Shown: piece by piece, positions 49,389 through 53,003 of the stretch | Layout of the letters: every line of letters begins with the position of its first letter | How positions within the stretch are numbered: the stretch's first letter is position 1 | Assembly (NCBI GenBank): GCA_021651055.1 | Contig: JAJHOH010000001.1 | Location: forward strand, 620,001-684,000 | Direction of reading: 5' to 3' | DNA from: Candidatus Manganitrophus morganii | Lineage (GTDB): Bacteria; Nitrospirota; Nitrospiria; SBBL01; Manganitrophaceae | Length of the DNA: 64,000 bases | Made by a program: the position numbers and the translations under genes | The notes under the pieces: generated by a model | What the model saw: only the letters and a program-made list of their open reading frames with translations | What the model was told of the DNA's origin: nothing | Databases searched by the model: none

Positions 49389-50654
49389 TCACCGGCCCCT
49401 TCTCGGCCTTGAAGAGGAAGTCCGTCCCTTGGTCGGGCGCGAAGGGGGATGGGCCGGCCGCGTTCTTTGTATCCGCTCGGAATGAGGGATCGATTTGGGC
49501 TGAACGAAGAGATCGTCTTCCGGCCATTCGACCGGAATCTTCTGTCCGATGTACTCCTCGATTTCCTCCAGGGCCATGACATATTCCTCATCGGCCAGGC
49601 TCAACGCCTTGCCCGCCGCGCCCGCGCGGGCGGTCCGGCCAATCCGGTGGACATAAGCCTCCCGGTCTTGGGGAAGATCGTAATTCACGACGAGGCTGAC
49701 CCCCTCGATATGCAGCCCCCGCGAGGCGACATCGGTGGCCACCAGGATCGGCACCTTCCTCTCCTTGAATTGCTCCAACGCCTTCATCCGCTGTTTTTGA
49801 GGCAAGTCGCCGGTGATCGCCCGAGCCGGATACCCTTGCTCGGTCAGCCGGTTCGCCAACACCTCCCCCTGGTTTTTGGTATTGACAAAAATCAACACCC
49901 GCTCCCAAATTTCTCTCTTGAGCAAACCGAGCAGGAGAGGGATCTTCTTTGTCCGCTCCACATGGAACAGGACCTGTTCCACCTTCTCTGCGGTGATCTG
50001 TTCGGGAGAGACTTCGATCTTGATCGGATTATTCATATGTTCATAAGCCAGCTCCATCACACGCTGCGTGAGGGTGGCGGAAAAGAGCATCGACTGCCGC
50101 TTATGATAAGGAGGAAGACGCCGCATCATAAAACGAAGGTCGGCGATAAATCCCATATCGAACATCCGGTCGGCCTCATCGATCACGAGGACCTCCACAC
50201 GGCGAAGGTCGTAGACCTTTTGCTTATAATAATCGATCAGTCGTCCCGGCGTTCCGATGAGAAGATCGACCCCTTCCCCCAGCATCGATCGCTGCTTCTG
50301 ATAATCGATTCCGCCGTAGACGGCCTGGATGTTAAACGGGGTCTTCTGTCCGAGCAGGGTTGCTTCTCTGGCAATTTGAATCACCAGCTCCCGCGTCGGG
50401 GCAATGACGATCGCCCGCGGGGAAGAGAGCTTGGAGGAAGGGGAAGGCTCGGTTTTGAGAAGGCGGGAAAAAATGGCGATGAGAAAGGCGGCGGTCTTTC
50501 CGGTCCCGGTCTGGGCCTGACCCGCGACATCCTTACCGGCAAGCGTGATCGGAAGGGTCCCCTCCTGGATCGGAGTACATTCTTTAAAACCGAGAGACTC
50601 AATCCCCTCAAGAACAGAAGGAGGAATCGGCAACGATCGAAATTCAGTAGGCAT
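49389..50654 (-). CDS. DEAD-box RNA helicase, RhlB-like
   Basis: 421 residues. Q motif GFKECTPIQEGTLPITLAGK, motif I AQTGTGKTAAF, motif II DEADRMFDMGF, motif III SATL and motif VI HRIGRTARAG are all present. The stretch RRLPPYHKRQSMLFSATLTQ and AYEHMNNP are close to RhlB. The C-terminal 60 residues are basic and disordered (RPTKGRTSSSRPRRGR), typical of RNA-binding tails. It unwinds RNA duplexes in ribosome assembly or mRNA decay. It is unrelated in function to its neighbours. Confidence 0.92.
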   Translation of the reverse strand: MPTEFRSLPIPPSVLEGIESLGFKECTPIQEGTLPITLAGKDVAGQAQTGTGKTAAFLIAIFSRLLKTEPSPSSKLSSPRAIVIAPTRELVIQIAREATLLGQKTPFNIQAVYGGIDYQKQRSMLGEGVDLLIGTPGRLIDYYKQKVYDLRRVEVLVIDEADRMFDMGFIADLRFMMRRLPPYHKRQSMLFSATLTQRVMELAYEHMNNPIKIEVSPEQITAEKVEQVLFHVERTKKIPLLLGLLKREIWERVLIFVNTKNQGEVLANRLTEQGYPARAITGDLPQKQRMKALEQFKERKVPILVATDVASRGLHIEGVSLVVNYDLPQDREAYVHRIGRTARAGAAGKALSLADEEYVMALEEIEEYIGQKIPVEWPEDDLFVQPKSIPHSERIQRTRPAHPPSRPTKGRTSSSRPRRGR

Positions 50655-50910
50655 ATCGTTGATATATTACCCTGCCGTTTGCGAAAATGCAAGGACCGAT
50701 TGACCTCGGCGAAACTCAAACAGACGCGCCGGACAAGTTTTGTTTTTATGTTGCGGAGGGGGCGTTCAATAATTCTGGTTGCGCGGCTTCCTTCTTTCAT
50801 GCTACATTTTTAACTGGATGTAGAATGAATCCCCGATCGCGTACCGTGAACTTGTAGAGTTCTTTTCTCATATTCCAATAGGGTAAACGTAGAGTTGAAG
50901 GAGGAAATGA

Positions 50911-51093
50911 ATGGCCGATATCTTGGTGGTAAGTTCGAAAATTAAGAAGTACATTCGAGAGAAATCTGAATTCAACACCTCCGCTGAATTTCTCCAGGCG
51001 CTCAGTCAGCGTGTTGAAAAACTCGCGATGGAAGCGATTGAACGCGCCAGAGCGGACAAAAGAAAAACGGTCAAGGAGAGAGATCTCCCCTGA
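50911..51093 (+). CDS. Bacterial histone (single histone fold)
   Basis: 60 residues with a very strong ribosome site (GAAGGAGG). It matches short bacterial histones such as the Bdellovibrio and Leptospira proteins: ADILVVSSKIKKYIREK, then FNTSAEFLQALSQRVEKLAM, and the ending ADKRKTVKERDL, the conserved RKTV-x-x-RD motif of the histone fold. Such proteins are nucleoid proteins that bind or bend DNA. Length equals that of the known examples. The last codons and stop lie within a 12-bp hairpin (51067-51097). The 255-base region before it has one inverted repeat (CTACAT/ATGTAG, 50802-50823) and no gene. Confidence 0.85.
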   Translation: MADILVVSSKIKKYIREKSEFNTSAEFLQALSQRVEKLAMEAIERARADKRKTVKERDLP

Positions 51094-51097
51094 CCGT
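51067..51097 (+). terminator. Hairpin overlapping the 3' end of the histone gene
   Basis: ACGGTCA (51067-51073) pairs with TGACCGT (51091-51097), and GGAGA with TCTCC above it, around a GAGA loop with a small bulge. It spans the last codons and the TGA stop. No T-run follows, so it may protect the mRNA end or act on translation rather than terminate. Confidence 0.45.
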
Positions 51098-51225
51098 TCG
51101 ATAAAGGCGCTTCGAGCAGGCGGCCCTCCTTAGCAGCGGCAATGCGGCCCGAACCGCCTCCTCTTGAATGATCTACAAAAATGATCTACAAACCGATGTC
51201 GTTCCGATGAGTTCAGGGGGAGGAG

Positions 51226-52917
51226 CTATCTTTGCAGTAGCCCTCCCAATCCCTCTTTTTCCAGCCTTTCTGTCAGTCTTTCCCGAAGCTGCTTCGCCGC
51301 CGTCTCCTTCAGCGCTTCCTCACGGAGGGCAAGGCGGGCGCCTTGAGGGGTCCCTGCAATTTCGATCGGGACCTCCAACTTCTCCTCCTCCATCGGGAGG
51401 AGCGACCCGACCGGCGTGCTTCGAATTTTCTGTGTAACCGACTCGGCCAGCCTCATCTCGCCGAGGAGGCGGTAAACACCGTCCAATCCGACCTCCCCTT
51501 CTCCCAAAAGATCAAAAAGAGGATTCTCCATGGAAAGACGGCTCAGCCCGATGCGGCCGGCGTCGATCTGAAGCCCCCCTTTTGCGGAAGAAAATCGGGT
51601 ATTCGGCTCCAGCGGGAGTTGAACCTGATCGAGGACCTGAAGCGTGGCGAGAGCCTCTCTCAAAAGGTTCACATTCTTAATCTCCCCTTCTCCGACTTCC
51701 CATTCCCCCTTCCCCGTCAACGTCTTTGAAAGCGCTCCCCAGTTTCCTCCACTCCCTTGCAACGTCACTCCGATCGAAGTCGTCCCGCTGAAAATGCCCG
51801 GATCGATCGGCACGAACTGCTTTACGACCGATCCGAGAGAGGCCTTTTGAAGCGCAAAGTTTGTTGTGAAGGGGAAGGCGCCGCTCGATAAGTCGACCCG
51901 GCCGCTCCCCGTAAAATGGCCCCCCCAGATATTGCCGTTTAAATTTTCGAGCGCGCCGACTTTTCGATTCAGCCTCGCTCGACCCGAAAGATTCGAGACC
52001 TCCATCCCTTTCACCTGAACCTCTTTCACAGTGAAATCGACCTCCATCGGGGTCGTTCCCGGAGAGGAAGGAGGGGGTCCCGGAGGAGGAGAGGTCTTCT
52101 GTGGAGGAGACCCCTCTTGCGGCAGAAGGAGCATCAATTCGTCAAGATCGACCTGCTCCGCATTCGCCCTCAAGAGAAGGCGCCCTTTTTGGTATCCCCC
52201 CTGGAGGTGAAGATCGCTCCGCCCGACGGTTCCCGAAAGATCAATCGTTTCCGGTTTGAGCGCCGTGGTCAGCGGTCCAACCCGTCCTTTCAAACTTGTC
52301 TGCTTCCCCTGCGGTTCAATCCGTGTCTCCAGATCGATCGAAGCGATCTCACCCAACTGAAGGTTGGACAGTTTAAGATCGAAGTCTTCAGCGGAAGTTG
52401 ATAACGGCGGCCCTCCCTTCACACGACGAACGTGTGTGATCCGCCCGTTTTTGACGATCACTTCATCCGCAAGAATTCCGATCGGACGTTGCTCTTGCGG
52501 GGATGTTGTCCCCCCCGGCGGGGATTTCTCGCCGCCGCCGAGGGTCGATGTGTTCCATTTTCCGTTCGCATCCTGGATCAGTTGGAGCGCCGGGCTTTGA
52601 ATAAGAAGCTCCTCCACTTCCACCCTTTTCTGCAAGAGCGGAAGAAGCCGGAAGCTCACAACGACTGAATCGGACCGGAAAAAATCTTCGGGGGAGAATT
52701 GAGGATCATCCCGGACAACGACTTTTTTCAATTGAACGCCAAGCGGCCAGAGCGAGAGGCGAACGCTCTCGACGTCGACCGACCGTCCCAATGCCGCTTC
52801 AACTTGGGGCAAATAACGCGATTTAACAAAAGAGAGGTCGACCAAAAACGGAGCCAAAAGAAGGATGAGGATCAAAACCAGAACAATCCCCCCCAGAATA
52901 ACCGCTATTTTCTTCAT
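51226..52917 (-). CDS. AsmA-family envelope protein
   Basis: 563 residues from the ATG at 52917; the frame is open to 52974 but the added residues precede an obvious signal-anchor. One membrane helix is at about 3-25 (IAVILGGIVLVLILILLLAP). The AsmA start (GRSVDVESVRLSLWPLGVQL) is followed by repeated beta-strand segments of the AsmA/DUF748 type, and the C-terminal AsmA_2 part (GKGEWEVGEGEIKNVNLLRE). A proline-rich linker lies near 275-300. AsmA-like proteins form beta-taco bridges that carry phospholipids to the outer membrane. This supports a diderm host. Confidence 0.85.
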   Translation of the reverse strand: MKKIAVILGGIVLVLILILLLAPFLVDLSFVKSRYLPQVEAALGRSVDVESVRLSLWPLGVQLKKVVVRDDPQFSPEDFFRSDSVVVSFRLLPLLQKRVEVEELLIQSPALQLIQDANGKWNTSTLGGGEKSPPGGTTSPQEQRPIGILADEVIVKNGRITHVRRVKGGPPLSTSAEDFDLKLSNLQLGEIASIDLETRIEPQGKQTSLKGRVGPLTTALKPETIDLSGTVGRSDLHLQGGYQKGRLLLRANAEQVDLDELMLLLPQEGSPPQKTSPPPGPPPSSPGTTPMEVDFTVKEVQVKGMEVSNLSGRARLNRKVGALENLNGNIWGGHFTGSGRVDLSSGAFPFTTNFALQKASLGSVVKQFVPIDPGIFSGTTSIGVTLQGSGGNWGALSKTLTGKGEWEVGEGEIKNVNLLREALATLQVLDQVQLPLEPNTRFSSAKGGLQIDAGRIGLSRLSMENPLFDLLGEGEVGLDGVYRLLGEMRLAESVTQKIRSTPVGSLLPMEEEKLEVPIEIAGTPQGARLALREEALKETAAKQLRERLTERLEKEGLGGLLQR

Positions 52918-53003
52918 CACCACACTCGGATTTATGTTTCTTTTATTATAGGGAATCCGAAGCGGGTGAAGCAAGTTGGGCGGATGGATGAATCGAAATC
53001 CGT

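Follow-up and report, generated by a model that had tools for sequence, protein, structure and literature searches.

Our results support firmly that a 60-codon gene of Candidatus Manganitrophus morganii is a genuine, single-copy bacterial histone. It lies in the window, the whole stretch of 64,000 nucleotides that was analysed, within a host genome of 4.29 Mb assembled as a single contig. The best explanation, which we consider very probable, is a chromosomal and mainly vertically inherited alpha3 histone of the HBb type, putatively a DNA-bending dimer that acts beside proteins of the HU/IHF family.

50911-51093, plus strand: histone gene, single copy, encoding an HBb-like alpha3 histone (open reading frame, Pfam, PDB search, homologues and AlphaFold2 model).

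This open reading frame encodes 60 amino acids, MADILVVSSKIKKYIREKSEFNTSAEFLQALSQRVEKLAMEAIERARADKRKTVKERDLP, and closes with RKTVKERDLP, in which RKTV-KE-RD occupies residues 51-58. A preliminary description of this DNA had pointed to the 60-residue frame and its RKTV-x-x-RD ending and had called the product a bacterial histone; both the frame and the ending are there, and Pfam, the PDB search, the AlphaFold2 model and Foldseek all bear out the call. The Pfam family CBFD_NFYB_HMF matched the protein with 21.9 bits, slightly above the cut-off of 21.4. When PDB sequences were searched with phmmer, residues 1-59 found their best match in HBb (Bd0055) of Bdellovibrio bacteriovorus (8fvx and 8cmp, E about 2e-15), followed by HLp (E 1.7e-6) and HTkC (E 3e-6). 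The AlphaFold2 model, a monomer built from 25 homologues, is of moderate confidence (mean pLDDT 80, pTM 0.51) and places helices at residues 2-19 and 25-48 and a single turn at 56-58. The model thus has the histone helix layout, whose absence would have spoken against the original call: alpha1-alpha2-short-alpha3, with a truncated alpha2 and alpha3, in a stand-alone singlet of about 60 amino acids. Foldseek searched with this model returned HBb in its first five matches (about 51% identity), then HLp and HTkC. A DUF1931 pseudodimer histone was rejected, the score being 19.5 bits against a cut-off of 21.8 and the chain 60 amino acids long against a two-fold profile of 138 positions.

The preliminary description had proposed a comparison with the Bdellovibrio and Leptospira histones, and HBb proved the nearest relative in both sequence and fold, with HLp next. 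Like HBb (PDB 8CMP, 8FVX, 9EZZ, 9F0E), which it resembles in length, the Manganitrophus histone is without an extra domain, and S9-K10, K12, T23-S24, D49-R51 and RKTV-x-x-RD are found in both. It differs from HBb, at about 51% identity, by R45 instead of S45 and K50 instead of G50, and by its host, a chemolithoautotroph of the Nitrospirota. HLp of Leptospira perolatii, a bacterial face-to-face (FtF) histone (PDB 9QT0), shares the alpha3 fold, the Arg at the tetramer position and the RD clamp, but the identity is 36% in the Foldseek alignment, Asn53 stands in place of Asp49, the C-terminus differs and the Manganitrophus protein lacks an N-terminal tail. With HTkC of Thermococcus kodakarensis, an archaeal FtF histone (PDB 9F2C), it has in common Arg45, an acidic residue 49 and RKT in loop 2; the similarity is lower, however, and HTkC carries His at the position of the clamp Asp. 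Pairwise scores strongly favour HBb, around which a group of bacterial dimer histones has been defined by sequence clustering (PMC11390915), while a tree of 60 columns, intended to place the protein relative to HBb and the FtF histones, was mostly unresolved for want of columns.

The RKTxxxRD motif, the RD clamp and S9-K10 are all present in the Manganitrophus histone, and V7, S9, K10, S24, L31, R51, K52, T53, R57 and D58 are invariant in 25 Nitrospirota homologues. Crystals of HBb have been used to describe its DNA-contact residues and the RD clamp (PMC11317129); with that study as reference, the invariant residues cover most of the contacts as well as the clamp. The histone would pair as a head-to-tail homodimer and touch DNA phosphates without sequence preference, through T23, S24, K52, T53 and R57 of loops L1 and L2, and S9, K10 and K12 of helix alpha1 may contact phosphates too. 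Such a dimer might bend DNA alongside the HU/IHF-family proteins of the cell.

The gene, which is probably transcribed as its own short transcript, is accompanied by the following features.

50897-50904, plus strand: Shine-Dalgarno site with core GAAGGAGG, a 7-nt match, similar in the orthologues.
50779-50808, plus strand: inferred promoter, TTGCGC, 18 bp, TACATT, from the congener alignment.
49389-50654, minus strand: DEAD-box RNA helicase, divergent neighbour, by reading of the sequence.
51226-52974, minus strand: AsmA-like protein, convergent neighbour, by reading of the sequence.

The strong ribosome site noticed earlier, GAAGGAGGAAATGA ahead of the histone ATG, is real and conserved, the orthologues that were read having a purine-rich site directly before the start. 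Its match is 7 nt long, and none of the longer open reading frames of the window, whose starts are roughly set, exceeds 6 nt. The high expression that had been expected from this site was not borne out by codon usage, which is ordinary. Measured against a set from the ribosomal-protein operon, the codon adaptation index is 0.63. This value falls under the window median, 80% of the compared window frames exceed it, and it is no higher than chance for this protein, in a comparison based on a short sample of 60 codons, on rough gene calls and on part of the genome. Codon usage thus fails to show high expression, yet it does not show low expression. Further upstream, a block at about 50768-50811 (ATAATTCTGGTTGCG...CTTCTTTCATGCTAC.TTTT) is almost unchanged in the congeners, and the intergenic DNA flanking it on both sides is much less conserved among them. 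This block is probably the promoter or a regulatory site; the consensus promoter scan did not list the inferred promoter at 50779-50808.

The 3' end of the gene carries a further element.

51066-51098, no strand assigned: hairpin spanning the histone stop and the codons just before it (fold, terminator scan and congener comparison).

A 12-bp hairpin had been reported across the stop codon, with the suggestion that it could stabilise the message. The hairpin does lie over the stop, but its stem is interrupted: 13 pairs form, leaving a single base unpaired in one arm and two in the other. The hairpin ends at 51098, one base further than first given. It spans 33 nt with -17.8 kcal/mol, and about 4% of 81-nt segments taken at random from the window contain a hairpin as strong. 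The 63-nt stretch centred on the hairpin, which was chosen around it, gave z = -3.4 on the plus and -4.7 on the minus strand, and an 81-nt stretch containing it gave z = -1.4. On the minus strand a U-rich run, TTTTTCTTTT, comes after the hairpin, which the terminator scan picked up on this strand and which lies 127 bp past the stop of the convergent AsmA-like gene. Since the run is found on this strand only, the hairpin, if functional, more likely ends the convergent gene; the run may also be accidental, because it is the complement of conserved Lys-Arg-Lys codons.

It is doubtful that the hairpin works at the 3' end of the histone message to stabilise or terminate it. A 3' hairpin is common among the orthologues, and in several of them strong, unrelated hairpins stand just past the stop, for example at loci of the same order (L010, L018, L019, L031) and of the class (L037, L039), but many other orthologues have no strong hairpin at the stop. 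On the plus strand, moreover, no U-run follows, and one arm sits in conserved codons, those for KRKTVKERD. Among the nearest congeners (L003, L028, L029) one stem base differs and the fold is weaker, while in the more diverged G183 and GW715 genomes the hairpin over the stop has either disappeared or been outranked by another local fold. Stabilisation of the message thus finds little support in a form that is kept only in the closest, near-identical congeners and has its U-rich tail on the other strand. The hairpin is probably no part of the histone's function, and either fortuitous or an aid to termination of the convergent gene. A perfect 16-bp hairpin directly follows the stop codon of L010, the orthologue in genome G255 that encodes Arg45 and Asn49.

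Residues 45 and 49 bear on the oligomeric state. In FtF histones the contact between dimers is made by an Arg and an Asn (R49 and N53 in HLp), and bacterial dimer histones are said to have neither (PMC11390915, PMC12701072). In the Manganitrophus histone the Arg is present (R45) and the Asn is replaced by D49, so that of the FtF signature R45 and RxTxxxxD are found and the full Arg/Asn pair is not. A face-to-face tetramer wrapping DNA, as with HLp or HTkC, instead of an HBb-like dimer is in our view unlikely, even though residue 45 is the FtF dimer-dimer Arg where HBb has Ser, and G255, from the same order, has both Arg45 and Asn49. Nor is Asn essential at residue 49, since the solved HTkC tetramer has Glu at this position (PMC11390915, PMC12701072). 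Against a tetramer, the sequence and fold are overall far closer to HBb, and the two proteins share Asp at position 49. Moreover, the chain extends at least two residues beyond the clamp Asp, whereas HLp and haloarchaeal FtF chains stop one residue after it, with a terminal carboxylate that has been described as part of the Arg salt bridge. Residue 45 itself varies across the Nitrospirota: Lys is frequent there, and Asn, Gln or His occur in some sequences. We favour the dimer over the tetramer, although the sequence does not settle the state. The Nitrospirota histones may form a lineage with an HBb-like DNA surface and a partial FtF contact, some members of which would tetramerise and record a step between dimeric bender and tetrameric wrapper, an idea to which we give little weight.

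There are many histone-fold proteins with functions other than DNA packaging, but such a role, for example as a transcription factor or as part of a protein complex, is very improbable here, where the checked HBb DNA-contact positions are retained, no domain is added, and the gene is isolated in a genome that encodes no partner histone.

The host genome encodes five members of the HU/IHF family, and a whole-genome search with the histone protein as query found neither a second histone nor a DUF1931 doublet; an earlier search with the PF00808 profile had missed even the window histone and was repeated in this form. The histone is thus one nucleoid protein among several. Bdellovibrio also has HU besides its histone (PMC12701072), and in this coexistence with HU-type proteins Manganitrophus is like Bdellovibrio and unlike Leptospira.

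Within the order, 14 of 18 genomes carry the histone; the corresponding figures are 26 of 270 for the class and, in a sample across the phylum, 14 of 296. The orthologue of Ca. Manganitrophus sp. GAC4 is 98% identical, and the neighbouring proteins are about 88-100% identical. Comparison with one congener indicated purifying selection (dN 0.08 versus dS 1.4), and the order helicase-histone-AsmA is kept within the genus, including the convergent orientation. In G293 and G175, which represent two further genera of this order, the histone gene adjoins a GGDEF gene, with UvrB beyond it in G293. The distribution, the conserved gene order and the large excess of synonymous over replacement changes indicate that within the order the gene has been inherited mainly vertically, with purifying selection acting on it. 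A mobile or phage origin was rejected: no phage record matched, and the plasmid matches were all below 60% identity, those listed being haloarchaeal.

Relatives with 41-46% identity occur on four viral contigs. HBb-like histones are encoded on large viral contigs of 187-190 kb (L054, 1872-2180; L056, 1803-2180), where the open frame continues upstream through a Cys-rich stretch, CIPCPDGCGEPWCPDCQVHYADCDCPGP; should translation begin there, this stretch might form a zinc-binding N-terminal domain. Ca. Manganitrophaceae GW715_bin.13 (G300, L034/L006) carries another histone copy, which shares 73% identity with the window histone and is interrupted at codon 33 by an in-frame TAG; either this paralogue is decaying or the assembly is wrong here. 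G293 likewise holds a divergent second histone (L022, G293:C84:8242-8415), with about 50% identity, His45 and Ser49.

The histone family, its fold and its mode of DNA binding are already established, and the Manganitrophus histone implies no new mechanism. Nitrospirota are absent from the main texts of two surveys (PMC10627809 and PMC11390915), whose supplements may list them, and no paper found in our literature search reports a histone from Nitrospirota (Nitrospirae) or Manganitrophus. On that evidence, the kind of protein is known, an HBb-type histone, and what is new is its host lineage, the Nitrospirota. Manganese-oxidising and related Nitrospirota thus join the lineages with Bdellovibrio-type histones. 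As enrichment cultures exist for the Manganitrophus group (PMC9040806), and the mostly vertically inherited histone coexists with HU/IHF proteins, its place in the nucleoid is open to testing.
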